A DNA stretch of 64,000 nt from Thioalkalivibrio sp. ALMg11 (lineage in GTDB: Bacteria; Pseudomonadota; Gammaproteobacteria; Ectothiorhodospirales; Ectothiorhodospiraceae), in NCBI RefSeq assembly GCF_000377905.1, contig NZ_KB898873.1, positions 186,001 through 250,000 on the forward strand, given 5' to 3'. Under the pieces are notes generated by a model. It had not been told where the DNA came from and did no database searches. It saw only the letters and a list, made by a program, of their open reading frames with translations. Shown here one piece after another: positions 7,088 through 32,147 of the stretch. Numbering within the stretch: position 1 is the stretch's first letter; each line of letters starts with the position of its first letter. The position numbers and the translations under genes were made by a program.

Positions 7088-7618
7088 TTACCCCTGCGCC
7101 TCCCCGTCTTCCACCTCGATCATGCTGGCAACTTCCAGCATTTCCTCATTGGTGAGGCGCTGGAACATCATGCCGAGGACGATCTTCACCTGGCGGGGCG
7201 TATTGGCCCAATCCTCATCGGTAGGGGCAAGGCCGCGCCACTCAGGATGCCGGGACATCGAGGCGTAGACCTGTCGGATCGAGGCGTCGATCGTCTCCTC
7301 CTCTCCCACGATGAAGTCTTCCGGGCGGAGGACTTCCGCGAGCATAAGCACCTGGGCGAACGGGATGCCGAGGAAGCGCCCCATGCTGCGGAGCTTTTCG
7401 TCCGTGATCTTGCTGATGTCCCGCCCACCGTTAAGGATCAGGGTGAGGTAGGAGTAGGTGATGCCGATGGCGTCCGCCAACTTGTAGCGGTCCATTTCCA
7501 GCTCCTCCGCTCGCTCCAGCAGTGCTTTCGTGAGCGCAGAGCCTTTGATGTGGCCGGTGGGAGCCGCGCCACCTCCATCTTCACCCGTCTTCTCTTTGGA
7601 ACTGCCTTTGGGGGCCAT
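7088..7618 (-). CDS. XRE-family transcriptional regulator
   Basis: A 176-residue protein with a Cro/CI-type helix-turn-helix at about residues 36-95 (RYKLADAIGITYSYLTLIL, the recognition part being GITYSYL). The N-terminal 25 residues are polar and probably disordered; the C-terminal 75 residues include an acidic and helical segment. AGGA lies upstream of the ATG. It is divergent from the 8-17 kb gene series, and a perfect inverted repeat (7685-7709) lies in the shared upstream region. It is therefore a likely regulator of itself and of that series, which is inference from position. Confidence 0.85.
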   Translation of the reverse strand: MAPKGSSKEKTGEDGGGAAPTGHIKGSALTKALLERAEELEMDRYKLADAIGITYSYLTLILNGGRDISKITDEKLRSMGRFLGIPFAQVLMLAEVLRPEDFIVGEEETIDASIRQVYASMSRHPEWRGLAPTDEDWANTPRQVKIVLGMMFQRLTNEEMLEVASMIEVEDGEAQG

Positions 7619-7684
7619 GCGTCGTTCCTTTGTTTCTGGATAAAAGGGCGGCTTCTCGATTCGCCGCCGTTGGGGGTTCGGTCG

Positions 7685-7709
7685 GGAAACGCGCTACATA
7701 AGCGTTTCC
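7685..7709. promoter_or_regulatory. perfect inverted repeat, candidate operator for the XRE protein
   Basis: GGAAACGC (7685-7692) and GCGTTTCC (7702-7709) flank a nine-base A/T-rich spacer containing TACATA. The 25-bp palindrome lies 67 bases upstream of the XRE start, a usual place for an autoregulatory operator. Confidence 0.5.
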
Positions 7710-7955
7710 TGTTGTAATTTTTCCATCGCCTCTCGGTGCATTGTATCTACAAACTGCGTACACGACATCACTTCCAGACACCCGAAGGTATTGATTTCTA
7801 CACGTTCTGGCGGTTTTGTTGCAGATTCGAGGTTTTGCAGCCCTGCCCTGGAGCCGTCTGCGCTCGCTCCTAACGAGAGCGAGAGGCTTGGCGAGTCAAT
7901 CAGTTACAGGGTCACAGGCATAGTGACCGGGGAACGGTCGGGGTCTCCCGGCGAT

Positions 7956-7984
7956 CCCGCCAATTCTCTCGGGCGGGTTTCTTT
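7956..7984 (+). terminator. leader terminator (module 1)
   Basis: CCCGCC (7956-7961) pairs with GGGCGGG (7971-7977), followed by TTTCTTT. It is the only module terminator with no co-directional gene before it, so it looks like an attenuator. Confidence 0.7.
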
Positions 7985-7996
7985 CGTCCGGCAATT

Positions 7997-8038
7997 CCTT
8001 CTCGAAGCAGGCCATTTCGGCCTTGCACGAAGAAGGAG
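7997..8038 (+). promoter_or_regulatory. Shine-Dalgarno hairpin (module 1)
   Basis: CCTTCT (7997-8002) pairs with AGAAGG (8031-8036), and GCAGGCC pairs with GGCCTTGC with one bulged base. The Shine-Dalgarno AAGGAG overlaps the 3' arm. Relative to most copies CGT became TCT on the left and the right arm changed to match. Confidence 0.7.
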
Positions 8039-8044
8039 ATCGCT

Positions 8045-9880
8045 ATGACGCAATCCACCATGCAGCAGTCCCTCGGTGTGACCGCGACCATGATGGTTGA
8101 GCAGATCAACCGTCAGGGGAGCGGCAACATCCGCGTTTCCGTGGATCGGTATGCCGCTACGGCTTCGACGGATGGCAACCACATCTGTCTGCCGGTCGTG
8201 GAGGACGACAAGCGCTTCATCGCGCTTGCGTATCTCGGCCACGAGGCCAGCCATGCTCGGGTGACCGACATGAAAGCCTTTCGTGCATTCGCGAAGCAGG
8301 GTCCGCTCCACCAGGGGGTTCTCAACATCATCGAGGACATCCGTATCGAGCGGAGCATCGTTCGCGTCTACCCCGGCCTTCGCAACCTTCTGGGGCAACT
8401 CGTAGCTCATTTGGTGCAGGAAGGCACGATGGGCACAACGGATGGGGAAAAGCACCCGGTTGTCGTTTTCGTCAACTGGCTGCTCCACACCCGCCGCGCC
8501 TGGGTGCTCCGGCAATCCGCTCTCGATGACATCGCCAAGGAAGACGACGCGCTCGCGCGTTCAATCCTGGGTGACGACATCATGGATCGGGCCGAGGGGA
8601 TTCTTGAGTGCTTGCCCACAATGGGCCTGGACTTCAAGGCAACGGCGGAAGCCGTTGCGGTCGCTGAGCAGATCATCGACCTCATTCGTGAGGCCGAGGA
8701 GCAGCACAACGACCAGTCCCAGCAGGAGGAGCAGAAGGGCGACTCCGGTGACGACCAGGACCAGGGTGAAAGCCAAGGTTCCGGTCAGGGCTCTCAGGAT
8801 GAGGGCTCAAGCGGCGACGCGGAAGGTGACTCAGGAAGCTCCAGTGAATCGGATGCTGGTGAGGGCTCGGATTCGGGTTCTGACTCCGGTGACTCCGGTT
8901 CCAGCGAGGGCTCCGACTCCGGGAAGGAAGACGATCTTGAGCAGAATGGCGGCAAGTCCAGCCGGAAGTTCAAGAAGATCGTCCAGCCGTGGATCAACAC
9001 GCCGGTACCGGATACGGACCTTGGTGACGTTCTCCAGAAGCACGGTCACCTGGACCGCAGCGGGAGCCCGGATGTAGAGCTGAAGGACACCTTCTCGTTT
9101 GCAAGGTTCTCCCATCTGCCAACCTACACCGGGGAAACCCGAGGGGTGCTGGCTGCGGAGGCAAGCGCTCTCGCGGGCGCTGTTCGACGTAGCCTGCGGG
9201 CTCTGCTGGAGGGTCAGGCTCGAAACCGCCGCGATCCGCGTCGGCAAGGGCGCCTCAGCAGTGGCTCTCTGCCAACGGTGATGACCGGGAACCATCGGGT
9301 CTTCTACCGGGAGGAGTTTGCGCGCGCGCAGTCTTGCGCAATCCATATCCTGCTGGATGTTTCCGGGAGCATGACAGCCGCCGAATCGGAACGCGGTTTC
9401 TCGCTGATGGCCGAATCCGTCATTGCGACACACGCGATGATGGAGGCTCTGGAGCCCCTGAAGGGGGTCCGCTCAGCACTGTCCGTTTTCCCGAACGGAG
9501 AGGAGATGGAGGTCTGGAGTCCTGTTCCCTTCTCCGAGACGTTCTCGGGGGTCAAAAGGAAGCGGGCTGCAAGCCTGTACCCGGCAGCAGGAGGGGTTTG
9601 TACGCCAATGCTCCAATCGCTGCGGGCTGTCGCGGGAAATCTGCTTGCTCAACCCGAGCAGCGGAAGATTGCGATAGTCGTGACCGATGGTGAGCCGGAT
9701 CGCACGGGTGAATGCCCGGCTGAGGCGGTCGAGGAGGTCCGAAAGATGGGCGTCTCCGTATTCGGCGTCGGTCTGGGCGTTGATCTGTCCCCGATTTTCG
9801 GGGATCAGTACGTCACCGTGGATAAACTGGAAGCCCTTTCGGGCGAGCTGAGAAAGGCGGCAAGGACCGTCCTGCGTTGA
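8045..9880 (+). CDS. CobT-like VWA protein with HExxH motif
   Basis: A 611-residue protein with an N-terminal metallopeptidase-like part and a C-terminal von Willebrand A domain. HEASH (residues 66-70) is an exact HExxH motif, and LNIIEDIRIER about 30 residues on could give the third zinc ligand. Residues about 220-300 are an acidic Ser/Asp/Glu/Gly low-complexity linker. The VWA metal site is DVSGS, with Asp438, Ser440 and Ser442. This layout matches CobT-like subunits that work with MoxR/CobS-type ATPases, and such an ATPase is encoded at 14386. A DUF3150 gene completes the trio seen on several integrative elements. The substrate is unknown; no cobalamin genes are nearby, so cobaltochelatase activity is unlikely. 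Confidence 0.82.
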   Translation: MTQSTMQQSLGVTATMMVEQINRQGSGNIRVSVDRYAATASTDGNHICLPVVEDDKRFIALAYLGHEASHARVTDMKAFRAFAKQGPLHQGVLNIIEDIRIERSIVRVYPGLRNLLGQLVAHLVQEGTMGTTDGEKHPVVVFVNWLLHTRRAWVLRQSALDDIAKEDDALARSILGDDIMDRAEGILECLPTMGLDFKATAEAVAVAEQIIDLIREAEEQHNDQSQQEEQKGDSGDDQDQGESQGSGQGSQDEGSSGDAEGDSGSSSESDAGEGSDSGSDSGDSGSSEGSDSGKEDDLEQNGGKSSRKFKKIVQPWINTPVPDTDLGDVLQKHGHLDRSGSPDVELKDTFSFARFSHLPTYTGETRGVLAAEASALAGAVRRSLRALLEGQARNRRDPRRQGRLSSGSLPTVMTGNHRVFYREEFARAQSCAIHILLDVSGSMTAAESERGFSLMAESVIATHAMMEALEPLKGVRSALSVFPNGEEMEVWSPVPFSETFSGVKRKRAASLYPAAGGVCTPMLQSLRAVAGNLLAQPEQRKIAIVVTDGEPDRTGECPAEAVEEVRKMGVSVFGVGLGVDLSPIFGDQYVTVDKLEALSGELRKAARTVLR

Positions 9881-9886
9881 AACCAC

Positions 9887-9921
9887 ACCCACCCTCGGCT
9901 CTGCCTTGGGTGGGTTTTTTT
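9887..9921 (+). terminator. terminator (module 2)
   Basis: ACCCACCC (9887-9894) pairs with GGGTGGGT (9908-9915) followed by a seven-T run. Confidence 0.85.
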
Positions 9922-9932
9922 ATGGGCTCAAT

Positions 9933-9976
9933 CCTCCGGTGAAGCAGGCCATTTCGGCCCTGCATACCCGAAGGAG
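9933..9976 (+). promoter_or_regulatory. Shine-Dalgarno hairpin (module 2)
   Basis: CCTCCGG (9933-9939) pairs with CCGAAGG (9968-9974), six of seven positions; inner arms are GCAGGCC and GGCCCTGC. AAGGAG lies in the 3' arm. Confidence 0.65.
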
Positions 9977-9983
9977 AAAAACC

Positions 9984-10214
9984 ATGGCTGGATTCGATGA
10001 AACGAACGTGATGGCACTGCTCGACAACGTGACGGGGCTCGACGAAGACACCGCAAACGTGCTGGGACAGGTCGAAAACATGCTCTCTCGCGTAGCCTTC
10101 GAGTGCCACGAAATGTTGTCGAAAATCGAGCGGGAAGGTATCCAGCAGTCGGAAGGCGGGGAACTCGCTCTCGCCCTCGAAATACTGCGCAAGATGAAGG
10201 ACTACCGGCGATGA
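9984..10214 (+). CDS. hypothetical protein, 76 aa
   Basis: No family recognised. A small acidic, wholly helical-looking protein (ETNVMALLDNVTGLDEDT, then SRVAFECHEMLSKIE) ending in KMKDYRR. The start ATG at 9984 follows AAGGAG; a longer frame runs back through the hairpin and is rejected. No membrane segment or cysteine motif. It stands alone between two leader modules. Confidence 0.75.
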   Translation: MAGFDETNVMALLDNVTGLDEDTANVLGQVENMLSRVAFECHEMLSKIEREGIQQSEGGELALALEILRKMKDYRR

Positions 10215-10240
10215 GCCGCCCGGAACTGCGCTGAAACCAA

Positions 10241-10273
10241 CCCGCCCTGGCTTTGCCAATGGCGGGTTTTTTT
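10241..10273 (+). terminator. terminator (module 3)
   Basis: CCCGCC (10241-10246) pairs with GGCGGG (10261-10266), with an inner TGGC/GCCA stem, followed by seven Ts. Confidence 0.88.
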
Positions 10274-10284
10274 ATGCCCGCAAT

Positions 10285-10326
10285 CCTCTCGTGAAGCAGG
10301 CCATTCCGGCCCTGCATCGTGAGGAG
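10285..10326 (+). promoter_or_regulatory. Shine-Dalgarno hairpin (module 3)
   Basis: CCTCTCG pairs with CGTGAGG with one T-T mismatch; inner arms GCAGGCC/GGCCCTGC. Here the Shine-Dalgarno is GAGGAG, and its partner changed from CCTTC to CCTC. Confidence 0.65.
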
Positions 10327-10333
10327 AAAGAGC

Positions 10334-10765
10334 ATGATCGACTTCGATTACACCTGCTATGCGGTCGTTACCGAGCGCGACACGACCAACCCGTTCCTGA
10401 GTGGAGGGGCGACCCTGATCGAGACGCACATCAAGGATGCCCAGCGCCTCGGGGATCAGCAGTCGCGGGCGTACCGTTTACAAGGGCCGATTGGTGGAGG
10501 CTACGGCCGCACCCTGGTCGTAGAGCTTGCGGCGATCGACCAGCGCGAGATCGACGCTGGCCTTTCACAGCGGCCGTCGCATGACGGGAGCGTGCTGTAC
10601 GCACCGGCCGTCTGGGATGCCAACGACCCGGATGGCCCCCTCATCCTCGAAACCCAAATCCGGGATGCCAGTTCGCTCAAGAAACAGCTAGAGCGAATCG
10701 AATGGCTCAGGAGCCAGGGGTCAAAAGACCTGCTGGATTCGAGAATCCTGCGATTCCACGTTTGA
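10334..10765 (+). CDS. hypothetical protein, 143 aa
   Basis: No family recognised. The start ATG at 10334 is eight bases after GAGGAG. The protein is soluble with mixed beta and helix (TCYAVVTERD; GRTLVVELAAIDQREIDAG; SLKKQLERIEWL). No catalytic pattern or export signal seen. It lies between modules 3 and 4 of the series. Confidence 0.75.
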   Translation: MIDFDYTCYAVVTERDTTNPFLSGGATLIETHIKDAQRLGDQQSRAYRLQGPIGGGYGRTLVVELAAIDQREIDAGLSQRPSHDGSVLYAPAVWDANDPDGPLILETQIRDASSLKKQLERIEWLRSQGSKDLLDSRILRFHV

Positions 10766-10788
10766 CGGCTCAGGCCACGAAGAAACCG

Positions 10789-10821
10789 CCCGCCCTGGCT
10801 TTGCCAGCGGCGGGTTTTTTT
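10789..10821 (+). terminator. terminator (module 4)
   Basis: CCCGCC (10789-10794) pairs with GGCGGG (10809-10814), inner stem TGGC/GCCA, then seven Ts. Confidence 0.88.
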
Positions 10822-10833
10822 GTGGGCGCAATT

Positions 10834-10875
10834 CCTTCGCGAAGCAGGCCATTCCGGTCCTGCATGACGAAGGAA
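10834..10875 (+). promoter_or_regulatory. Shine-Dalgarno hairpin (module 4)
   Basis: CCTTCG (10834-10839) pairs with CGAAGG (10868-10873); inner GCAGGCC pairs with GGTCCTGC around a bulged T. The Shine-Dalgarno AAGGA overlaps the right arm. Confidence 0.68.
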
Positions 10876-10881
10876 AAGACG

Positions 10882-12603
10882 ATGATTGACTCGTTGCAGT
10901 TCTATCCAACCCCGAAGTCCCTGGCCGAGAAGGCTTGGTCCATGTTCCGGGAACGCGATTTCACTCGCGTCCTGGAGCCCTCCGCCGGAAACGGCGACCT
11001 GTTGGCTGCCGCGCCCTCGAATGGGTGGATGGGGAGAACCCCCATCGACTGCATCGAGATCGACATTACCCGACACCCGCGTTTGCGGGAGGAAGGGTAC
11101 TCGGTCGTTGGGCTCGACTTCCTCCAGTTCGACTCCGGTTCCATGTACAGCCACATCATCCTCAACCCGCCCTTTGCCCAGGGCGCGCTTCATGCGCTGA
11201 AGGCGTGGGATTCCCTATGGGATGGGGAGGTGGTCGCGATCCTCAACGCCGAGACGATCCGTAACCCGTGCTCGAAAGAGCGGCGGCGGCTCGTCCGGCT
11301 CGTGGAGGCTCACGGCGAAGTGGAGTTCGTGGAGGCGGCGTTTGCCGAGGACGACTCCATGCGGAAAACCAACGTCGAGGTGGCGCTGGTGTATCTGCGG
11401 AAGAACGCCGACCTGGAGCACGACCTGGCCGGGACCATCATGGAAGACCTTGAACGGGACTCCATGACGGCCGCAGGGCTCGCCAGCGGCTATCACGAGC
11501 CGCAAGAGCTGGCATTGGGCGCCTCGACCATCGAGAACGCCGTGACGGCCTTCAACGCGGCCGTGAGGGCGTCTCGTGAGTCGGTCTTCGCGGATGCGAG
11601 GGCTCAGCGGTACAAGGCCCGGCTGGGGCGTTCGATGGGCGCTGTGACAGGCGGGTATTGCGATGACGCCTTCGGGGACCGCTCCTCTGTGGAGTATGTA
11701 CGGCGTGAGCTGTTCAAGCGCTACGAAGACCTGAAGGACCGCGCGTGGACCGGGATTCTCCGATCCTCGCGCGTGACGGACCGGCTCTCGTCGGCCGGGC
11801 AGAAGCAGGTCGAGTCGCAATTCGCCCAGATCAAGACCCTGGAGTTCACCGTGAGCAACATCTACGGGTTCCTCTTGGGAGTGATCGAGAACCAGGGCGA
11901 CATCCAGCTCGAAATGGCGTGCAGCGTGTTCGATCAGATCACCCGGTATCACTCGGATAATGCCGTGTACTACCGGGGGTGGAAGTCGAACGATCGTCAC
12001 AGGGAGGCCGGAATGCGGATCAAGATGACCCGCTTCATCCTTCCGGGCCACAACTGCGAGCCATGGCGGACCGGGATTTCCTGGGACTCCCAGCGGCTAC
12101 TCAGTGACTTCGACAAGGTGTTTGCCATGCTCGATGGCAAGCAAAAGCCGGAGTACGGCATCGCGGAAGCCTTCGACCAGGAGTTCGAGGCATTGAAGGA
12201 CGGCGAGCGTATCCAGAGTTCGTACTTCGATCTCCGGTACTACCCTGGCGCCGGGACGATCCACTTCTTCCCCCGCAACAAGGAGGTAGTGGACCGCCTC
12301 AACCGCTTGGTCGGACGGCATCGCGAGTGGCTGCCGCCGGAAGATGCTCGCGTCAGCGAGGACTTCTGGCTTCAGTACGAGAAGGCGGAGCGCTTCGACA
12401 AGGAGCTGCGTGAGGAGGTCCGGAAGGCCCCCGTGGACCGCTCTTTCTGGGGTTCGCCGTTCGATCAGGTTTGTTCTGCGCACGAGGATCGACGGAACCA
12501 CGGAAGCGAAGTAGTGGACCAGGCGCTCGGGCGCGTGCTCGAACGCCATGGCATTGACGTGGATAAGGCGCTTGAAGCGCCCCAGAAGCGTCTCACTGCA
12601 TGA
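10882..12603 (+). CDS. DUF4942-type protein with N6-adenine methyltransferase-like domain
   Basis: A 573-residue protein. The N-terminal 190 residues form a class I SAM-dependent methyltransferase: motif I is VLEPSAGNGDLL near residue 32, the acidic SAM loop ends CIEIDIT, and the catalytic motif is LNPPF near residue 95, as in N6-adenine DNA methyltransferases of the NPP(F/Y) type. The remaining 380 residues match the DUF4942 pattern as I know it (helical region, then RYHSDNAVYYRGWKSN and YYPGAGTIHFFP). Such proteins are frequent on integrative conjugative elements and may protect element DNA. No restriction endonuclease gene is adjacent. The start is the ATG at 10882; an ATG inside the hairpin is also in frame but lacks a Shine-Dalgarno. 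Confidence 0.8.
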   Translation: MIDSLQFYPTPKSLAEKAWSMFRERDFTRVLEPSAGNGDLLAAAPSNGWMGRTPIDCIEIDITRHPRLREEGYSVVGLDFLQFDSGSMYSHIILNPPFAQGALHALKAWDSLWDGEVVAILNAETIRNPCSKERRRLVRLVEAHGEVEFVEAAFAEDDSMRKTNVEVALVYLRKNADLEHDLAGTIMEDLERDSMTAAGLASGYHEPQELALGASTIENAVTAFNAAVRASRESVFADARAQRYKARLGRSMGAVTGGYCDDAFGDRSSVEYVRRELFKRYEDLKDRAWTGILRSSRVTDRLSSAGQKQVESQFAQIKTLEFTVSNIYGFLLGVIENQGDIQLEMACSVFDQITRYHSDNAVYYRGWKSNDRHREAGMRIKMTRFILPGHNCEPWRTGISWDSQRLLSDFDKVFAMLDGKQKPEYGIAEAFDQEFEALKDGERIQSSYFDLRYYPGAGTIHFFPRNKEVVDRLNRLVGRHREWLPPEDARVSEDFWLQYEKAERFDKELREEVRKAPVDRSFWGSPFDQVCSAHEDRRNHGSEVVDQALGRVLERHGIDVDKALEAPQKRLTA

Positions 12604-12611
12604 CGACCACA

Positions 12612-12644
12612 CCCGCCCTGGCTTTGCCTGCGGCGGGTTTTTTT
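12612..12644 (+). terminator. terminator (module 5)
   Basis: CCCGCC (12612-12617) pairs with GGCGGG (12632-12637), then seven Ts. Confidence 0.88.
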
Positions 12645-12655
12645 GTGCCCGCAAT

Positions 12656-12702
12656 CCCTTCGTGAAGCCGCGCCATCCCGGCCCGGCACCATTACGGAGG
12701 TA
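12656..12702 (+). promoter_or_regulatory. Shine-Dalgarno hairpin (module 5)
   Basis: CCTTCGT pairs with ACGGAGG through one G-T wobble. The inner stem is changed on both sides, GCCGCGCC with GGCCCGGC, keeping seven of eight pairs: a compensated variant. Confidence 0.68.
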
Positions 12703-12708
12703 TCGCCT

Positions 12709-12930
12709 ATGAAGAAACTGACCCAGCGCCTCGGGGCTCGTGTGGCGGGAGCCCTGACGCGCAAACAGCTCAAGCGGCTGTTCCGCCCGCTGCCGCAGGC
12801 AGCGATGGCCGCCACCGTCTTCCTGTTCGGGAAGATGGTCTACGAAGGGGCGTTTGACCCCCTGGCCCTGCTGCTGGCCGTGCTCGCCGTTTTCGTGCTG
12901 CAAGTCCTGTTGTACGACAACGATGAGTGA
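12709..12930 (+). CDS. small membrane protein, 73 aa
   Basis: A basic N-terminus (about 27 residues, many Arg and Lys) precedes a hydrophobic stretch at roughly residues 30-45 and a second, longer one at 49-68 (PLALLLAVLAVFVLQVLL), with an acidic tail DNDE. Two membrane segments or one re-entrant plus one are likely. No family recognised. The start at 12709 follows GGAGG eight bases upstream. Confidence 0.72.
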   Translation: MKKLTQRLGARVAGALTRKQLKRLFRPLPQAAMAATVFLFGKMVYEGAFDPLALLLAVLAVFVLQVLLYDNDE

Positions 12931-12966
12931 CGGGCGAAGTGCTAAAATCGTGAGAGGAAGACAACC

Positions 12967-13101
12967 ATGAATGTCGATATGAGCAATCTGTCCATCGCAA
13001 TCGTCGCCGCCACGGTCGCCGTAATCGCGGCGTATTTTGGCCTTATGCGGCTCGGGAAGTGGGCTGAGAAAAAGCACGAGAAGCTGAAACACGAGAGCTG
13101 A
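12967..13101 (+). CDS. single-pass membrane miniprotein, 44 aa
   Basis: A short gene starting at the ATG at 12967, with AGAGGAAG upstream. It encodes a short polar N-terminus, one hydrophobic segment (SIAIVAATVAVIAAYFGLM, residues about 8-26) and a Lys/Glu/His-rich cytoplasmic tail. It is the only gene of the series without its own leader module: it follows the 73-residue membrane protein by 36 bases, so the two form a pair. Confidence 0.6.
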   Translation: MNVDMSNLSIAIVAATVAVIAAYFGLMRLGKWAEKKHEKLKHES

Positions 13102-13131
13102 CGGCCTATTCTCCCCGCAACGGAACCAGCA

Positions 13132-13164
13132 CCCGCCCAGGTACTACCTGTGGCGGGTTTTTTT
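13132..13164 (+). terminator. terminator (module 6)
   Basis: CCCGCC (13132-13137) pairs with GGCGGG (13152-13157) and seven Ts follow. The inner stem is CAGGT/ACCTG where other copies have TGGC/GCCA, so inner pairing is conserved despite sequence change. Confidence 0.88.
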
Positions 13165-13175
13165 GTGCCTGCAAT

Positions 13176-13219
13176 CCCTTCGTGAAGCCCGCCAATTCCG
13201 GTGCGGCATGAAGAAGGAG
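13176..13219 (+). promoter_or_regulatory. Shine-Dalgarno hairpin (module 6)
   Basis: CCTTC pairs with GAAGG (13213-13217). The inner stem is GCCCGCC with GGTGCGGC: all seven pairs can form around one bulged C, including one G-T wobble, though most bases differ from the commonest copy. Confidence 0.65.
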
Positions 13220-13226
13220 CAAGGCC

Positions 13227-14267
13227 ATGAGCAATTCCAACAACTCCGTGACCGTCACCGAGGCAATCTCGGTTGTGACCCTCGACATTTCCACCTGGTC
13301 GGGCGGCGTCACCATGAAGCAGGGGGAGCTTGGCGTCACGCTTCCGGAGAAGGCGTTTACTCGCGGCCGGAAGATGCTGGTGAAGCCGGAAACCCTGAAC
13401 CCCGCCCTGACGCTTCGGCGTCGTGCGCGGGATCGGTGCCTGAAAGTCGGCACTCGCTTCCTCGGAGGCTTCGCTGTCCCGAAGGAAGCCCTCCCCGATC
13501 TCCTCGTGGACCTCGCTGCGATGCAGACCGAGTTCAACGACTTCGTGGAGGACTTCGTGCAGCGATTGACCAAGGAGGTCGATGAATGGGTCGATCAGGA
13601 CTGGTGTACCGACGAAATGGAGGACGCCATCCGCCGAGGTGTCCCGAGCGCGAACACGCTTCGCAATCGCTTCGGGTTCGACTACGGGGTGTTCAACATC
13701 CAGCCTTCCGATGAGGAACCGGAGAACCTGAGCCGTCACGCCGAAGGGATGAGCGGGTCGGTTTTCCGGGAGGTCGCCCAGGCGGCCGAGCGCGTCTACG
13801 ACGACTTCATCGAGGGTTCCCGCAACCGCGATGAGCCTCGGTTGACCCAGCGGTTGATCCGGGGCTCGATCACGAGCCTGCGGGACAAACTCTCGGGTCT
13901 GGAGTTCGTGGACAAGCGGATTCCGCCGATCGTGATGGAGCTGGACGATGTGCTGGGACGGATGCCCTCGAAGGGTGACATCACCGGGCAGAATCTCGGT
14001 GAGGTCGTGTCGATCCTGATTATCCTCTCCGATGAGGAGAAGATGCAGAAACTCGGCCAGGGGCTTCTCACCCGGCAGGAGTTTTTCCCGCATCAGATGG
14101 TCGGGAGCACGATTCCAGGCTCCTCCCCGAGCAATTCGGCCGACACCACGGCCGAAGCAGGCGAGGACGATGCTGAGGAGGGTGACACCGATCTTGGTGC
14201 CTCCATGCCTCCGCCCACTCCGAAGAAGCAGAACAGCGCTGGAAACAGCGTCTATGTGAGCTTCTAG
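13227..14267 (+). CDS. DUF3150-like protein
   Basis: A 346-residue soluble protein, mostly helical (RLTKEVDEWVDQDW; SVFREVAQAAERVYDDF). Length, helical content and position between a CobT-like VWA gene and a MoxR-type ATPase gene fit the DUF3150 family as I recall it; these three genes travel together on integrative conjugative elements. The N-terminus (VTEAISVVTLDISTWSGG) is typical of that family. The C-terminal 60 residues are acidic and low in complexity. Biochemical role unknown; a substrate adaptor or accessory subunit of the MoxR/VWA pair is one possibility. Confidence 0.7.
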   Translation: MSNSNNSVTVTEAISVVTLDISTWSGGVTMKQGELGVTLPEKAFTRGRKMLVKPETLNPALTLRRRARDRCLKVGTRFLGGFAVPKEALPDLLVDLAAMQTEFNDFVEDFVQRLTKEVDEWVDQDWCTDEMEDAIRRGVPSANTLRNRFGFDYGVFNIQPSDEEPENLSRHAEGMSGSVFREVAQAAERVYDDFIEGSRNRDEPRLTQRLIRGSITSLRDKLSGLEFVDKRIPPIVMELDDVLGRMPSKGDITGQNLGEVVSILIILSDEEKMQKLGQGLLTRQEFFPHQMVGSTIPGSSPSNSADTTAEAGEDDAEEGDTDLGASMPPPTPKKQNSAGNSVYVSF

Positions 14268-14290
14268 TCGAGGTCTATGACCACCAACCA

Positions 14291-14323
14291 CCCGCCCAGG
14301 CTTTGCCTGTGGCGGGTTTTTTT
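14291..14323 (+). terminator. terminator (module 7)
   Basis: CCCGCC (14291-14296) pairs with GGCGGG (14311-14316), inner CAGGC/GCCTG, then seven Ts. Confidence 0.88.
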
Positions 14324-14335
14324 ATGGCGGCAACT

Positions 14336-14377
14336 CCTTCGTGAAGCAGGCCATTCCGGTCCTGCGCCTCGAAGGAG
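14336..14377 (+). promoter_or_regulatory. Shine-Dalgarno hairpin (module 7)
   Basis: CCTTCG (14336-14341) pairs with CGAAGG (14370-14375); inner GCAGGCC pairs with GGTCCTGC around a bulged T. AAGGAG overlaps the right arm. Confidence 0.68.
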
Positions 14378-14385
14378 ATACCACC

Positions 14386-15324
14386 ATGCAAGAACAGATG
14401 ATCGACCTGACCGTTTTCGGTCTTCCTGGCGGCCAGTTTCCGGGCTTTGCCCCGGATCACGAGCTGGCCGAGCTGGTGCCCGAGTACAGCCCTCACCATG
14501 TCTTCGATACCGATGCCCTGCGGGACTTCCTCGCCTGGGTGTCGCAACCGGATGGTGACGGGTTCTACATCCACGGCCCGACCGGATGCGGGAAGACCTC
14601 GATGATTGAGCAGACCGCCGCTCGGCTGAACTGGCCCGTTCGCCGGGTCAACGCGACCGAGCGGATGGAGCTGGCTGACCTGGTTGGGGACAAGTCCCTC
14701 GAAACGTCCGAGTCCGGGAATGGCCCGGAGACGGGTTTCCAGTACGGTCCGCTCGCACTCGCGATGAAAGAGGGGGCGATCTTCATTCTCGATGAAGCCG
14801 ACATCCTCAATCCTGCGGTCTTCGCCGCACTCAACCCGGTCCTGGAGGGTAACGCCCTCGTTCTGGACCGGAACGGCGGGGAGGTGATCCACCCGGACGA
14901 GAGCTTCCGATTCGTGGTCACTGGCAACACCGCTGGTCTGGGCGATGACACGGGCAACTACGTTGGTACCGCCCAGCAGAACCTCGCGACCATGGATCGC
15001 TTCTGGACGGTCGAGCTTGGATACCCCCAGCACGAAACCGAGAAGAAAATCCTCACGTCGCGGTTCAGCGGCAAGATTGATCCGAAGGTCATGGATCAGA
15101 TGATCTCGCTGGCTACTCGGGTTCGCTCAGCGTTCGAGGAGGGCACGATGTCCGCCACATTCTCAACGCGAACCCTGGTGCGCTGGGCCTCGATGATCGA
15201 CCGCTACCGCCGAGCGTCTGTGGACGATGTTGTGGCCTACACGCTCAAGCGGGCGATGGCGGGCCGACTGCCTCAGCACGAGCAGGAGGCTGTGTTCGAC
15301 ATGAAGAAGGTGATCTTTGAGTAA
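14386..15324 (+). CDS. MoxR/CobS-type AAA+ ATPase
   Basis: A 312-residue AAA+ ATPase. Walker A is GPTGCGKTS at about residues 64-72, Walker B is IFILDEAD near residue 132, and sensor 1 is VVTGNT near residue 184. It lacks extra domains, as usual for MoxR and CobS. ATPases of this group act as chaperones that insert metals or remodel partners, usually with a VWA protein; the partner here is probably the 8045-9880 product, with the DUF3150 protein as third member. The start at 14386 follows GAAGGAG; upstream in-frame codons fall inside the leader hairpin. Confidence 0.9.
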   Translation: MQEQMIDLTVFGLPGGQFPGFAPDHELAELVPEYSPHHVFDTDALRDFLAWVSQPDGDGFYIHGPTGCGKTSMIEQTAARLNWPVRRVNATERMELADLVGDKSLETSESGNGPETGFQYGPLALAMKEGAIFILDEADILNPAVFAALNPVLEGNALVLDRNGGEVIHPDESFRFVVTGNTAGLGDDTGNYVGTAQQNLATMDRFWTVELGYPQHETEKKILTSRFSGKIDPKVMDQMISLATRVRSAFEEGTMSATFSTRTLVRWASMIDRYRRASVDDVVAYTLKRAMAGRLPQHEQEAVFDMKKVIFE

Positions 15325-15360
15325 GCGCGTTCGCGAACTCAATCCACCAAGCTGACCTAC

Positions 15361-15394
15361 GCCACCCTTGTCATTGACTTGGGTGGCTTTTTTT
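15361..15394 (+). terminator. terminator after the AAA+ gene
   Basis: GCCACCC (15361-15367) pairs with GGGTGGC (15381-15387), then seven Ts. In this copy 120 bases, including the second hexamer array, lie between the terminator and the next Shine-Dalgarno hairpin. Confidence 0.85.
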
Positions 15395-15402
15395 CGCCTT
15401 GC

Positions 15403-15468
15403 GACTGTCACTGTGACTGTCACAGTTACAAGCAATGTGACGGTGACAGTCACAGTAACACTCACAAG
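15403..15468. repeat. second 6-bp-phased repeat array
   Basis: Eleven six-base units of the form NAC-NGT (GACTGT, CACTGT, CACAGT, with TACAAG and CAATGT variants) run for 66 bp. The grammar and orientation match the array upstream of parM at 3526-3627. It splits what is elsewhere a compact terminator-hairpin module. Confidence 0.75.
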
Positions 15469-15505
15469 AAGAACGCCCGGATGCGGCGCCTGGGTGGGTT
15501 CTTCC
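15469..15505 (+). terminator. degenerate terminator-like hairpin (module 8)
   Basis: AAGAAC (15469-15474) pairs with GTTCTT (15498-15503), with CCC/GGG inside. The T-run is poor, so activity is doubtful; by position it may be the original module terminator, damaged or separated by the array. Confidence 0.4.
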
Positions 15506-15517
15506 GTCACCGCAACT

Positions 15518-15559
15518 CCTTCGTGAAGCAGGCCATTCCGGCCTTGCATGACGAAGGAG
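15518..15559 (+). promoter_or_regulatory. Shine-Dalgarno hairpin (module 8)
   Basis: CCTTCGT (15518-15524) pairs perfectly with ACGAAGG (15551-15557); inner GCAGGCC pairs with GGCCTTGC with one bulge and one G-T wobble. Confidence 0.7.
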
Positions 15560-15564
15560 AAGGT

Positions 15565-16482
15565 ATGTCCAACCTCACCCGTTACCTCCACCTGGAGCAG
15601 CGCTCTCCGGAGTGGTTCGAGTGGCGCCGAAGCCGGATCACGGCGTCGGAAGCCGCCGCGATCCTGGGGGTGTCTCCGTACACCTCTCCGTATCAGCTCT
15701 GGATGCGAAAGAAGGGCCTCATGGCCGAGCAGCCGGATAACCCGGCGATGGCGCGCGGCCGACTTCTCGAACCGCTCGCGTTGCAGCTCTACAACGAGTA
15801 CACGGCCAACATGGCCGCGCCTGTGTGCGTGGAGCGGACGGACGTTCCGTGGCTGGGAGCCAGCCTTGACGGGCTGGATTTCTGGGGCGAGATCATCGCG
15901 GAGATCAAGGTGCCCGGCCTTGAGGACCACGAGAAGGCTTGCGAGGGGATCGTCCCCGAGAAGTATTACCCGCAGCTCCAGCATCAGCTCGTGAATGTTC
16001 CGTCTGCGAAGGTGAACCACTACTGGTCGTATCGGCCGGGGCACTCGCAGGAAACCGCGCTCGTCGAGGTTCCCCGAGACGAGGCGTTCATCGAGTCCAT
16101 GCTGGAATCGGTGGAAGCCTTCTGGCGCTCGCTCTCCGGGGATACACCCCCCGGCGGCCCCCACTGGGCCGAACATGAGCAACGCTACCTGGAGGCCCTG
16201 GAGCAGCAGCAGCTCGCGAATGAGCGAGTCGCTGATGAGAAGGAGGCACTGATCTCCCTGGTGCCCGATGGTCACCGCAAGCTGGATGGAGAACGCCTGT
16301 CTGTGTCGCTCTCGGGTGGCTCCAATGGCTCTCTGGACTACAAAAAGGCGTTCGAGGCGGCGCTTGGTCTTATGACCGAGGAGCAGCAGGAACAGCTCGG
16401 TAGTCTGGAGCGTTTCCGGGGTTCCCCGAAAAAGGGCTCCTGGCGCGTCACCGTAAAGAAGGGTCCGCAAGCGGCCCACTGA
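15565..16482 (+). CDS. YqaJ-type (lambda exonuclease-like) viral recombinase
   Basis: A 305-residue nuclease of the YqaJ/lambda-exonuclease group, which resects DNA ends for single-strand annealing recombination. The N-terminus QRSPEWFEWRRSRITASEAA followed by ILGVSPYTSPYQLW is the family signature. The PD-(D/E)XK site is seen as LDGLDFW then EIIAEIKVPG near residues 105-115, and PKYYPQLQHQL-type residues follow (EKYYPQLQHQL). The C-terminal 100 residues are a helical extension. Phage systems pair this nuclease with a Bet/RecT annealase; none is encoded in this window, so the partner may lie elsewhere on the element. Confidence 0.87.
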   Translation: MSNLTRYLHLEQRSPEWFEWRRSRITASEAAAILGVSPYTSPYQLWMRKKGLMAEQPDNPAMARGRLLEPLALQLYNEYTANMAAPVCVERTDVPWLGASLDGLDFWGEIIAEIKVPGLEDHEKACEGIVPEKYYPQLQHQLVNVPSAKVNHYWSYRPGHSQETALVEVPRDEAFIESMLESVEAFWRSLSGDTPPGGPHWAEHEQRYLEALEQQQLANERVADEKEALISLVPDGHRKLDGERLSVSLSGGSNGSLDYKKAFEAALGLMTEEQQEQLGSLERFRGSPKKGSWRVTVKKGPQAAH

Positions 16483-16487
16483 CCACG

Positions 16488-16520
16488 CCCGCCCTGGCTT
16501 TGCCAGCGGCGGGTTTTTTT
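16488..16520 (+). terminator. terminator (module 9)
   Basis: CCCGCC (16488-16493) pairs with GGCGGG (16508-16513), inner TGGC/GCCA, then seven Ts. Confidence 0.88.
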
Positions 16521-16531
16521 GTGCCCGCAAT

Positions 16532-16574
16532 CCCTTCGTGAAGCGATCCATTCCGGATTCGCACACAGAAGGAG
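16532..16574 (+). promoter_or_regulatory. Shine-Dalgarno hairpin (module 9)
   Basis: CCTTC-GTG pairs with CAC-A-GAAGG around a bulged A. The inner stem is GCGATCC with GGATTCGC, a fully compensated variant with seven pairs and one bulged T. AAGGAG overlaps the right arm. Confidence 0.7.
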
Positions 16575-16580
16575 ATCGAC

Positions 16581-16907
16581 ATGAAGACCCCCGAAGAAAC
16601 GACCGAGTGCAACGCATATACCAGCCGCATCCGCTGGAATCGGAGCAAGCTGCACAAGGACGTACCCCTGGTGCGAGCGGGCTCCTACACCGGGACGCTG
16701 TGTGGGATTGCTTTTGAGGTCCGCATCGCCAGCAATCCCGGTGGGAGCTACACCCGCTCCGGCTGGAATGTCTACCTGACGGTGCGTGGGCAGAAGTCTC
16801 GCCGCTCGGGCATCCAGGGCGGGCTGAAACGTGCCGCAGAGGTCGCTCGATCCGCAATTCGGGACGAGGTGGCCTATATCCGTGGGGACTCAATCCCCCG
16901 GCGGTAG
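16581..16907 (+). CDS. hypothetical basic protein, 108 aa
   Basis: No family recognised. A small soluble protein, rich in Arg and Lys, with alternating beta-like stretches (GTLCGIAFEVRIAS; GWNVYLTVRGQ) and a C-terminal helix (LKRAAEVARSAIRDEVAYI). A nucleic-acid-binding role would fit the charge but is not shown. The start at 16581 follows AAGGAG. Confidence 0.72.
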   Translation: MKTPEETTECNAYTSRIRWNRSKLHKDVPLVRAGSYTGTLCGIAFEVRIASNPGGSYTRSGWNVYLTVRGQKSRRSGIQGGLKRAAEVARSAIRDEVAYIRGDSIPRR

Positions 16908-16913
16908 AGCCCT

Positions 16914-16940
16914 TACGGTTCCTTCTGTGGGTGGGTTTTC
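16914..16940 (+). terminator. degenerate terminator-like hairpin (module 10)
   Basis: CCC and GGGTGGG flank a 17-base loop and are followed by TTTT. It sits where other modules have a strong terminator but is visibly weakened. Confidence 0.35.
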
Positions 16941-16952
16941 CGTGCCTCCCAA

Positions 16953-16998
16953 CTCACCAGCAGAAGCACGCCATCCCGGCGCTGCCCGATGAAAGGAG
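16953..16998 (+). promoter_or_regulatory. Shine-Dalgarno hairpin (module 10), divergent copy
   Basis: The outer arm has lost most pairing (CTCACC against AAAGGAG), but the inner stem GCACGCC with GGCGCTGC keeps seven pairs around one bulged C, again with changes on both sides. Confidence 0.5.
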
Positions 16999-17006
16999 CT
17001 ATTCCT

Positions 17007-17240
17007 ATGTCGAAGCATCTTGAGGGCGCCTGCTGCCCGAATTGCCGATCCTCCGAATCCATGCCCATCCATCGTTCGCGTGACGCTGGTGAGTTCTGTG
17101 AGTGCCCCGATTGTGGACACACTGAAGCTCCCGGTGCCTTTCTTGAGGCGAAGGCTGAGCTAGGCAATCCCTTCCGGCTGACCGTAATCGTCGTGCTTGT
17201 GGTTGCCTTTGGGTGGTCTTTCCTTGGAATCGGATTCTGA
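17007..17240 (+). CDS. zinc-ribbon membrane protein, 77 aa
   Basis: An N-terminal zinc-ribbon pattern CCPNC (residues 9-13) and CECPDCGH (32-39) is followed by one hydrophobic segment (residues about 58-76, LTVIVVLVVAFGWSFLGI) that ends the protein. The likely topology is a cytosolic zinc domain anchored by a C-terminal tail. Family not recognised. The start at 17007 follows AAAGGAG. Confidence 0.75.
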   Translation: MSKHLEGACCPNCRSSESMPIHRSRDAGEFCECPDCGHTEAPGAFLEAKAELGNPFRLTVIVVLVVAFGWSFLGIGF

Positions 17241-17279
17241 CCGACACGAGGATTCGATCTTTGGTCGAACACCTCTCTG

Positions 17280-17314
17280 CCCACCCTCGGCTCTGCCTTG
17301 GGTGGGTTTTTTTT
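17280..17314 (+). terminator. terminator (module 11)
   Basis: CCCACCC (17280-17286) pairs with GGGTGGG (17300-17306), followed by eight Ts. Confidence 0.88.
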
Positions 17315-17325
17315 CGCCCTCAATA

Positions 17326-17364
17326 CCTAGTGAAGCAGGCCATTCCGGCCCTGCACGCTAGGAG
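17326..17364 (+). promoter_or_regulatory. Shine-Dalgarno hairpin (module 11)
   Basis: The outer stem is CCTAGTG with CGCTAGG, changed on both sides relative to CCTTCGT/ACGAAGG, with one G-T wobble. The inner stem is GCAGGCC/GGCCCTGC. The Shine-Dalgarno is TAGGAG. Confidence 0.7.
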
Positions 17365-17371
17365 AAGTCCA

Positions 17372-17509
17372 ATGAAGTACGCCATTGCCTTCGCGCTCGT
17401 CACCGCCGTTTCGGTTGGTATCGTGAATATCACTGCCGCTTCCGTGGCTGATAGTGTGGATCAGAGCGTGTCTCTGACCGAACAGCGCATGTCTGCCGCT
17501 GGCCTTTGA
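17372..17509 (+). CDS. small membrane or exported protein, 45 aa
   Basis: Starts at the ATG at 17372 after TAGGAG. It has a hydrophobic N-terminus (YAIAFALVTAVSVGIVNI) followed by a polar tail (DSVDQSVSLTEQRMSAAGL), so it could be a single-pass inner-membrane peptide or carry a cleavable signal (cleavage after TAASVA). No family recognised. It is the last gene of the leader-module series. Confidence 0.6.
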   Translation: MKYAIAFALVTAVSVGIVNITAASVADSVDQSVSLTEQRMSAAGL

Positions 17510-17543
17510 TTTCCGGGTATCTCTGATATTCCGGGCTCACTAC

Positions 17544-17578
17544 ACCCACCCTTAGCTTTGCTTTGGGTGGGTTTTTTT
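17544..17578 (+). terminator. final terminator of the series
   Basis: ACCCACCC (17544-17551) pairs with GGGTGGG (17565-17571), then seven Ts. This copy is not followed by a Shine-Dalgarno hairpin, consistent with the end of the transcription unit. Confidence 0.88.
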
Positions 17579-17663
17579 ATGGGGAGGGGCAAAGAGGTAG
17601 GGCTTGCGCCCAGGAGGGCGACTGAAGCGGGCGACCCAGGGTGGATCGCCCGGCAGAGAGGGT

Positions 17664-17909
17664 TTACGCCTGTCCGGAAAGGTCCTGGTGTACGCGGCGG
17701 ACAGCCAGCCAGCCCGAGGCGAGACCGATCTGGAGACCGATGATGGCCTGAATCTGGGTCTGCTTGACCTGGAGAATGAAGTCGTTGGCTTGGATCGAGC
17801 TGAAGGTCAAGGGGAGCCCTGAAAGCACTCCAATGAAGACCAGCAGCGCTCCGTTGGCGACCAGGGCGGCGAGGAAAAGGTATTCGATAACGCCAAGAGC
17901 TTGTTTCAT
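17664..17909 (-). CDS. small membrane protein, 81 aa
   Basis: Three hydrophobic stretches (residues about 8-28, 30-45 and 53-68) suggest an integral membrane protein; it ends with an amphipathic HQDLSGQA. AAGGA lies eight bases upstream of the ATG. It is the last of three minus-strand genes convergent with the series at 8-17.5 kb. No family recognised. Confidence 0.65.
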   Translation of the reverse strand: MKQALGVIEYLFLAALVANGALLVFIGVLSGLPLTFSSIQANDFILQVKQTQIQAIIGLQIGLASGWLAVRRVHQDLSGQA

Positions 17910-31350: not shown

Positions 31351-32147
31351 GGGGCCGGCATTCGGGGGCCGCGCTGATCACGGCCCTGCTGGTGGTCGCG
31401 ATCGCCAGCGTGACGGCGGTCACCATGACCATGCGTGACAATCAGCAAGTGTTCCGCGCAGCCACCATCCAGGACCAGGATCGGGCGCAACACCTGACGC
31501 AGGGGGCCGAAACCGTCGCCCTCCACATGCTGGAAAGGCTGCGAAACTACGACGACCTGCCGTGGGATGGCTGCACGTCGCCCACATTGCCACTGGAGTT
31601 AGAGGGTGTCGGCGTCCGCGCCCGCCTGGAGAATCTTCACTGCCGTTTCAACATCAACAGTCTCGGGCGTGCCGATGACCCGCCCCTTGAGGCCTTCGCT
31701 GGCCTGATCGAACAGGCCCTCGCGGCAACCGACGGACAATCGGGCAACGCCCAACGCCTGGCGGTCGCCGTGCACGACTGGATGAACCCGGAGACGGACG
31801 ATCCGGTATACCGCGGCCTGGAACCGCACCGGCTCAGCGGCAACCGCCCGATGCGCTTCGCATCGGAATTGCTCCAGGTACACGGGTTCGACCCGGACCT
31901 CTGGCGGACACTGGCACCCTGGGTCGTGGCCCGGCCGGGCACGGACAATGCCATCGACATGGAACGCGCCCCGGACCCCGTCCAAACCGCAGCGCTGGGT
32001 CATGCGACCGAACAGAGCCGCGACATTCGCTATTACCGCCTGCAACTGGTTGTCCGCATCGCCGGACGGGATTATTTTCACTGCGCGATCCTCGATGGCC
32101 CCAACGGGCGTACCATTCTTCGCGAACACGCCCCCTGCGAACCCTGA
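31347..32147 (+). CDS. gspK: minor pseudopilin GspK
   Basis: A 266-residue pseudopilin, shorter than the usual 300-330 residues. The GTG start overlaps the gspJ stop. The hydrophobic N-terminus (GAALITALLVVAIASVTAVT) lacks the Glu at +5, as is typical of GspK, which caps the pseudopilus. CRFNINSL and later PMRFASELLQVHGF match the family. Confidence 0.9.
   Translation: MRGRHSGAALITALLVVAIASVTAVTMTMRDNQQVFRAATIQDQDRAQHLTQGAETVALHMLERLRNYDDLPWDGCTSPTLPLELEGVGVRARLENLHCRFNINSLGRADDPPLEAFAGLIEQALAATDGQSGNAQRLAVAVHDWMNPETDDPVYRGLEPHRLSGNRPMRFASELLQVHGFDPDLWRTLAPWVVARPGTDNAIDMERAPDPVQTAALGHATEQSRDIRYYRLQLVVRIAGRDYFHCAILDGPNGRTILREHAPCEP

Follow-up and report, generated by a model that had tools for sequence, protein, structure and literature searches.

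Leaders that hide the Shine-Dalgarno (SD) sequence in a stem are known from translational riboswitches, thermometers and the operators of ribosomal-protein and phage genes, where they serve single genes. Here we describe a recombination operon in which all but one of the genes are preceded by an SD-containing leader hairpin, found in a 64,000-nucleotide stretch of Thioalkalivibrio sp. ALMg11 (contig NZ_KB898873.1, C3:186001-250000; hereafter the window, with C3 marking coordinates of the whole contig) within a draft genome of 3.04 Mb in 18 contigs. The leaders sit in a large integrated conjugative element of the F type of this Thioalkalivibrio-type bacterium. Homologs of exo, cobS, DUF3150 and cobT occur in SXT/R391 and IncC-type elements, and the homologous recombination operon of SXT, which begins with s089, is preceded by a SetCD-activated promoter (PMC4344509). 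No description of per-gene leaders in these recombination operons was found in the literature searched, which covered few subscription journals.

A sequence-only reading had placed eleven copies of a terminator-plus-hairpin unit in the window, and all eleven hairpins do lie on the forward strand where it had put them. The set is larger than that, as a second operon of the same element adds five leaders by covariance model and two by eye; homologous leaders on the plasmid pAt1 and a wider pattern in SXT/IncC-type elements also go beyond what had been noticed. With moderate confidence, we propose that each leader would function as a translational lock released in trans.

Anatomy and reach of the leader family

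The module typically follows this order: the stop codon of the preceding gene, a GC-rich stem with seven T residues, a linker, CAA followed by T or C, an outer left arm similar to CTCCTTC, GAA, an inner stem of three pairs, a bulge and four pairs with a loop that is mostly ATTCC or ATCCC, and then the right arms, with the start codon a few nucleotides further on. The leader measures around 50 nucleotides, usually has one bulged base in the inner stem and contains the SD within the outer right arm, while the linker spans 6 to 10 nucleotides (36 before the ERF gene). Among 25 aligned leaders of the element and pAt1, GAA is conserved in 25, CAA in 24 and GAAGC in 22. In the window, GAAGC is indeed invariant in all 11 copies, and the inner stem GCAGGCC is present in seven (c1, c2, c3, c4, c7, c8 and c11), with the other four changed in step on both arms. 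Eleven of the 12 genes of the window operon carry a leader, so that "nearly every gene" was a fair description; the exception is a 44-codon open reading frame (ORF) at 12967-13101.

The terminator is a less regular component than had been claimed. A GC stem with at least seven T residues precedes eight of the 11 window copies, and the remaining three have an interrupted T-run (c1), no adjacent terminator and no T-run within 75 nucleotides (c8), or a weak stem (c10). Counting all 18 modules of the element, 14 have a strong terminator with a GC-rich stem and a T-run, and the gene for ERF joins c8 and c10 among those where it is weak or absent. The pattern GG.GGGT5 is found nine times on the forward strand between 7.9 and 17.6 kb, never on the other strand of this region and never in the remainder of the window. 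A simple consensus scan of 7600-17700, a range that leaves the second operon outside, found no sigma-70-like promoter, compared to 1.4 expected from shuffles, in agreement with the earlier view that the linker leaves no room for a promoter. The unit also does not correspond to any described RNA family in Rfam, as no match above gathering was obtained in the window, and a permissive search of 7900-17600 returned only two microRNA models below gathering, both over a GTCAC/GTGAC repeat and probably an artefact.

A covariance model (R1) trained on five window copies (c1, c4, c7, c8 and c9) recovered the six untrained ones with E values of 1.4e-11 to 3.2e-4 in a search of 164 kb, and in this same space detected five copies in the second operon, none of them used in training (1.9e-17 to 1.7e-4). 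This operon is divergent from the window operon and lies about 66 kb away, and the leaders run in the sense of the genes in both. Its two leaders identified by eye precede ssb and the primase gene; that of ssb is the least certain, as its minimum-energy fold does not contain the inner hairpin that was read by eye. Genome-wide there were 16 significant matches, all within the element; beyond it the 3.04-Mb genome gave no further significant match and one reverse-strand echo of c8 (E = 0.79), with 150 of 1051 first-look candidates scored.

The 175.9-kb plasmid pAt1 of Allochromatium tepidum, a member of another bacterial family, has diverged copies of the leader. R1 identified three places there (E = 4.6e-4, 0.0021 and 0.011), before an exonuclease, a primase and a small gene. 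A second model (R2), built from 19 leaders (16 of the element and these three), added eight places with E values down to 0.30, including those before the VWA, AAA, DUF3150 and DUF4942 genes; one of the 11 places (171355) has no assignable gene, and the next three matches (0.72, 0.86 and 5.1) were treated as chance without checking. When 105 proteins of the element (own gene calls) were compared with pAt1 by tblastn, 37 were matched, and seven of these belong to leader genes in Thioalkalivibrio (six by model, the primase by eye). All seven orthologs have a leader in pAt1 as well, six by R2 and the seventh (pAt1 42733) by eye, compared to 0 of 30 with an R2 match at the place of the remaining orthologs, positions being compared by eye (Fisher, 1e-7). 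Restricted to R2 matches on both sides, the contrast is 5/6 versus 1/31 (8e-5). The leader thus accompanies, or is retained by, a particular set of genes across protein identities of 33-55%. The annotated start of the pAt1 DUF3150 gene (12764-13957) is upstream of its leader, and the true start is probably at pAt1 12902.

Outside these two elements the family looks narrow, since R2 was blank in the stretches of relatives that were searched. At E < 1 it gave nothing in pALVIN02, in 28.8-kb segments from an IncC and two Pseudomonas plasmids, in 20 kb of pTK9001 or in nine short DUF3150 loci, and at E <= 5 nothing in stretches of R997, an Aeromonas plasmid, two Halomonas plasmids and one further Pseudomonas plasmid. 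Across 47 genomes of the bacterial family (own included), R1 produced two weak extra matches, of which one falls in apparently coding DNA and the other lies beside a CRISPR array. Across 369 genomes of the class (own included), R1 found nothing except its own genome at E <= 1e-4, and R2 gave two weak matches that were read as chance. First-look candidates were scored in part (130 per genome in the 47-genome search and 16 per genome in the 369-genome searches), so weak copies may escape. In a collection of genome contigs, the consensus pattern matched once, in coding-looking DNA of a Clostridia metagenome-assembled genome, and two patterns in viral contigs matched 3 and 27 stretches, none placed as a leader by eye; in both collections, records near the own genome were possibly excluded.

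Conservation of the fold and closure of the SD

The claim that the fold is kept by selection is borne out by double changes well above shuffles in two alignments. In 25 leaders fitted to the model (16 of the element and 9 of pAt1), 86.3% of the cells are paired compared to 66.1% in shuffles, and 65 cells have double-sided changes compared to 21.4, with 0 of 500 shuffles as high in either count; these shuffles ignore relatedness. Sliding the partners reduces the double changes to 5-12. The two inner helices are paired in 100% and 99% of the cells and the outer one in 73.3%, the latter with double changes at six of its eight pairs. Three pAt1 rows (VWA, AAA and DUF3150) have a near-identical core, and their match is confined to the inner portion of a longer leader; for AAA and DUF3150, the CTCC arm is located 28 nucleotides farther upstream. 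In the 19-leader count, which does not include those rows, 89.4% of the cells are paired and there are 31 double changes compared to 7.8, again with 0 of 500 shuffles reaching this. Maintenance of the fold by selection is thus supported for the leaders of the element and pAt1.

The SD is more often closed from its 5' side in leader genes than in the rest of the element, with a median pairing probability of 0.69 in 17 leader genes and 0.30 in 28 others (p = 0.001). That the right arm of the hairpin holds a paired SD is true for most copies, as 12 of the 17 scored genes reach at least 0.6, and fails for c10, in which the outer stem is not formed. The c10 SD has a 5'-side pairing of 0.01 and a total of 0.72, and is therefore paired to the 3' side; for its gene, a start at 17007 is more likely than at 16989, which would be inside the leader. 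Leader c8 was left unscored, as the gene caller chose another start, and its minimum-energy fold closes the SD. In h3815 and the primase leader, an outer stem without the SD seems possible by eye.

Related elements and genomic setting

To describe the upstream regions of related elements, we defined a module as the series of same-direction genes that includes DUF3150, adding the second operon in the case of the Thioalkalivibrio element, and folding was compared with dinucleotide shuffles for genes with an SD and at least 45 nucleotides upstream. Pooled, the 71 module genes are much more folded than the 344 others (p = 5e-22). The median z is -3.5 versus -0.5 in pTK9001 (7 and 147 genes), -3.4 versus -0.2 in pQBR55 (17 and 55), -2.7 versus 0.1 in pALVIN02 (6 and 8), -3.9 versus 0.3 in the IncC plasmid of Shewanella LC6 (21 and 4), -2.6 versus -0.6 in pAt1 (3 and 59) and -2.0 versus -0.1 in the Thioalkalivibrio element (17 and 28). 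SD closure is raised in the module genes of the Thioalkalivibrio element, pAt1 and pQBR55.

Further records were folded after this comparison. R997, which judged from its genes belongs to the SXT/R391 family, has nine module leaders with z values of -1.9 to -6.2; the values for 13 such leaders of Aeromonas pAhD4-1 are -1.2 to -5.6. The leaders of both mostly consist of two hairpins, the second of which closes the SD, and the one gene outside the module whose folding was computed, traF, has z = -2.5. By eye, the first hairpin of this two-hairpin layout in the relatives mostly has no T-run. In Halomonas I5-271120 all 20 module leaders have z <= -2.2, and of the other genes three of four are near zero and the fourth is at -7.2; in Pseudomonas psychrotolerans the median is -2.7 over 22. 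For these later-added Halomonas and Pseudomonas records a Mann-Whitney test of 42 versus 4 genes gave p = 0.054. A stretch of Halomonas PA16-9 without DUF3150 was weaker (-1.2 over 12) and was excluded from the test. A third leader style is seen in the Thioalkalivibrio sp. K90mix plasmid NC_013930.1 (240,256 bp), which we take to be pTK9001: at about 9340-14780 the same genes have strong stems that run right up to their SD, as is seen ahead of the gene with its start at 12856.

The F-type character of the host element is given by its type IV secretion system (T4SS) genes (TraC, TrbI/TraB, TraN and TraU) and a TraG/TraD-type coupling protein, and it also codes for Rep3 initiators, an actin-like protein and a type IA topoisomerase. 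An MmeI-type restriction-modification gene (C3:115637-118387, reverse strand) adjoins the integrase and lies either at the element's left end or slightly beyond it, and on the other side chromosomal genes (secretin, type II secretion protein F) are found from window position 24521 onward. There, within an ORF beside the type II secretion genes, ARAGORN called a tRNA-Leu (anticodon aag, 31805-31883), probably a false positive. Coordinates of the leaders, terminators and operons are collected in Table 1.

Table 1. Leaders, terminators and associated loci (window positions unless prefixed with C3).
Feature	Coordinates	Strand	Context	Support
Terminator-like stem, T-run interrupted (TTTCTTT)	7956..7984	+	before c1
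Leader c1	7992..8044	+	before CobT/VWA gene 8045-9880	model, fold, Pfam
Intrinsic terminator, stem -18.8 kcal, T7	9888..9921	+	before c2
Leader c2	9929..9983	+	before small gene 9984-10214	model, fold
Intrinsic terminator	10241..10273	+	before c3
Leader c3	10281..10333	+	before gene 10334-10765	model, fold
Intrinsic terminator	10789..10821	+	before c4
Leader c4	10829..10881	+	before DUF4942 gene 10882-12603	model, fold, Pfam
Intrinsic terminator	12612..12644	+	before c5
Leader c5	12652..12708	+	before small gene 12709-12930	model, fold
Intrinsic terminator	13132..13164	+	before c6
Leader c6	13172..13226	+	before DUF3150 gene 13227-14267	model, fold, Pfam
Intrinsic terminator	14291..14323	+	before c7
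Leader c7	14331..14385	+	before CobS-like AAA ATPase gene 14386-15324	model, fold, Pfam
Terminator of AAA gene	15361..15394	+	ends 118 nt before c8
Leader c8, no adjacent terminator	15513..15564	+	before YqaJ/lambda-exonuclease gene 15565-16482	model, fold, Pfam
Intrinsic terminator	16488..16520	+	before c9
Leader c9	16528..16580	+	before gene 16581-16907	model, fold
Weak terminator-like stem (T4)	16912..16940	+	before c10
Leader c10, outer stem not formed	16950..17006	+	before gene 17007-17240	whole leader matches model
Intrinsic terminator	17280..17314	+	before c11
Leader c11, outer stem CCTAG/CTAGG	17321..17371	+	before small gene 17372-17509	model, fold
Operon-ending terminator	17544..17578	+	no leader after
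Window operon	8045-17509	+	CobT/VWA, DUF4942, DUF3150, CobS-like AAA ATPase, YqaJ/lambda-type exonuclease, small proteins
Second operon	C3:121366-127376	-	ERF annealase, SSB, cytosine methylase, small proteins, DnaG-type primase; outside window
Tyrosine integrase	C3:118491-119471		element

Upstream of the first leader, a palindrome GGTCAC-AGGCATA-GTGACC (7910-7928) faces a divergent helix-turn-helix (HTH) gene (7088-7618) whose conservation extends to pAt1; the palindrome is a candidate operator of the window-operon promoter. The GTCAC/GTGAC inverted-repeat array mentioned above (15394-15472), between the terminator of the AAA gene and c8, is possibly an operator or promoter region. By analogy with SXT, the window operon may be transcribed from a promoter before its first gene.

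A proposed lock, its alternatives and known systems

The observations behind the lock are the conserved pairing, the SD in a stem arm, the placement at the start codon and the specificity for a gene set. The unit would be a cis-acting 5' leader RNA, each before one gene of operons for recombination and DNA processing. Its transcript would fold into a long hairpin whose outer stem pairs an arm similar to CUCCUUC with the SD, so that in the ground state translation would be held down. The inner stem-loop (GCN, four pairs and a loop that is mostly AYYCC) varies little, as do the internal-loop GAA and the CAA at the 5' side, and together they form a putative site for one trans-acting factor. This factor, coded by the element or by the host, would open the outer stem and turn the whole set on together. 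The upstream terminators would require the polymerase to read through, or the genes to be reached otherwise; the proposed gating of the genes by read-through is a plausible inference.

A candidate for the factor is a tandem CsrA-like protein of 142 amino acids with two CsrA stretches (E = 1e-18), encoded in the element outside the window (C3:138118-138546, reverse strand). Two other factors were discarded: ProQ/FinO as a shared factor, as it is absent from the own genome by the Pfam model, though two are annotated in pAt1, and an element-borne NusG paralog, as the two NusG-domain genes of the genome are on other contigs.

Several results weigh against the lock or its wider reach. No trans factor has been found, and for the CsrA-like candidate, pAt1 has no CsrA and 14 of 18 leaders have a single GGA. 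The 5'-side pairing of the SD is weak (0.01-0.47) in five of the 17 genes (c10, primase, ERF, dcm and h3815), so that what stays constant is the inner hairpin together with GAA and CAA, SD closure being common and not universal. In the element and pAt1 the sense strand has no folding advantage over its complement (15 lower, 14 higher), while in the pooled set it does (51 versus 28, p = 0.004). Among the relatives, the definition of the module came after they had been read by eye, and the excess of SD pairing is not significant in pTK9001 (p = 0.43), pALVIN02 (0.40) and IncC (0.17), though that of folding is. Altered pairs stay paired in only 30 of 74 cases (IncC versus Aeromonas, and two Pseudomonas plasmids). 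Evidence of covariation is therefore restricted to the element and pAt1, and the claim for the wider group is limited to an excess of folding and does not extend to a conserved structure.

Alternatively, the modules could mark the ends of processed monocistronic mRNAs, the terminator hairpin being the 3' end and the leader hairpin the 5' end, with an RNase cutting the linker after read-through, the hairpins protecting the products and the SD pairing as a by-product. Both the succession of hairpin, linker and hairpin at nearly every junction, which recurs mostly without a T-run in the SXT/IncC-type operons, and the SetCD-activated promoter before the first gene of the SXT operon (PMC4344509) agree with such processing. 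It leaves unexplained why the SD is in the right arm and why the loop and GAA are constant, and we consider it unlikely.

The antiterminator put RNAs of phage HK022 are bulged stem-loops linked to terminators, and the bulged inner hairpin could be a cis-acting RNA of this kind, each leader re-arming the polymerase for the next terminator. The strong terminators before 14 of 18 leaders, the lack of promoter-like sites in the window operon and the conservation of the inner hairpin would be expected from it. The first terminator, however, precedes the first leader, by eye the first hairpins of the relatives mostly have no T-run, and the leader hairpins reach right up to the start codon; this reading seems very unlikely to us.

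We give even less weight to the idea that the hairpins work in the single-stranded DNA of a transferring element, whether as promoters of the Frpo kind, as sites of priming or as folded sites for recombination. The element is conjugative, and Frpo promoters are described as single-stranded DNA structures near leading-region genes such as ssb (PMC11541004). On the other side, no -35/-10 was found in the window operon, the SD is built into the unit and, since the two operons diverge with their leaders in gene sense, one set would be on the wrong strand of the transferred DNA. The strand comparison did not favor the sense strand in the element and pAt1. Slightly less credible still is that the unit is a DNA site read as a dyad, such as a promoter or operator used by an alternative sigma factor or an activator: the near-constant CAA and GAAGC and the HTH gene in common with pAt1 suit this, but two-sided stem changes that keep the pairs are not expected of a protein-read dyad, and the spacing suits the start codon. 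Least probable of all is that the repeats are homology tracts for gene shuffling by the annealase and exonuclease of the element, with incidental structure, in spite of the similar junctions on an element encoding ERF and a lambda-type exonuclease and of the bet/exo-mediated recombination suggested for variable-region boundaries in SXT/R391 elements (PMC2791158), as selection for homology preserves identity and not pairing between divergent letters.

If the leaders are locks, conjugative elements would control their proteins for recombination and DNA processing through a post-transcriptional switch, one that is invisible to transcript maps alone, and the conserved hairpin would be a handle for isolating the putative factor. 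The arrangement resembles a lineage-specific form of the strongly folded, often SD-closing leaders seen in SXT/R391, IncC, pQBR55-like and Halomonas operons. A bolder and rather doubtful extension is that many SXT/R391-, IncC- and pQBR55-like elements carry an operon-wide lock, that is, one long mRNA in which nearly every gene has its own SD-closing leader and is silent until a factor linked to transfer or establishment opens all of them, with the Thioalkalivibrio/pAt1 lineage adding a terminator to most and a conserved recognition hairpin.

Among known systems, the SXT/R391 and IncC operon (bet, exo, cobS-like AAA, DUF3150, cobT-like VWA and neighboring genes) has homologous co-directional genes and strongly folded upstream regions, mostly of two hairpins; it differs in that R2 finds nothing credible there in the stretches searched and in a first hairpin that mostly has no T-run. 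Like the Frpo/ssi promoters (PMC11541004), the leaders are folded sequences that conjugative elements carry close to genes of the ssb type, but Frpo holds a -35/-10, which was not found in the window operon, and here leaders accompany both gene directions. The targets of CsrA/RsmA, including the plasmid-borne RsmQ, resemble them in a GGA at the SD (PMC9928087); such targets usually have two GGA, in loops, whereas the single GGA of most leaders here lies mainly in a stem, in the right arm. CsrA-like genes are present in the Thioalkalivibrio element, pTK9001, pQBR55 and a P. frederiksbergensis plasmid, and absent from pAt1, pALVIN02, the IncC plasmid, R997 and pAhD4-1; for pAt1, a CsrA of the host may still be involved. 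Unlike HK022 put, the hairpins come in many copies, beside start codons and after the terminator. Last, as in the classic SD-sequestering leaders, an RNA stem pairs with the SD directly upstream of the start codon, but in the present case two operons have such a leader, in similar form, at almost all of their genes, for the most part following a terminator, and another element has it too.

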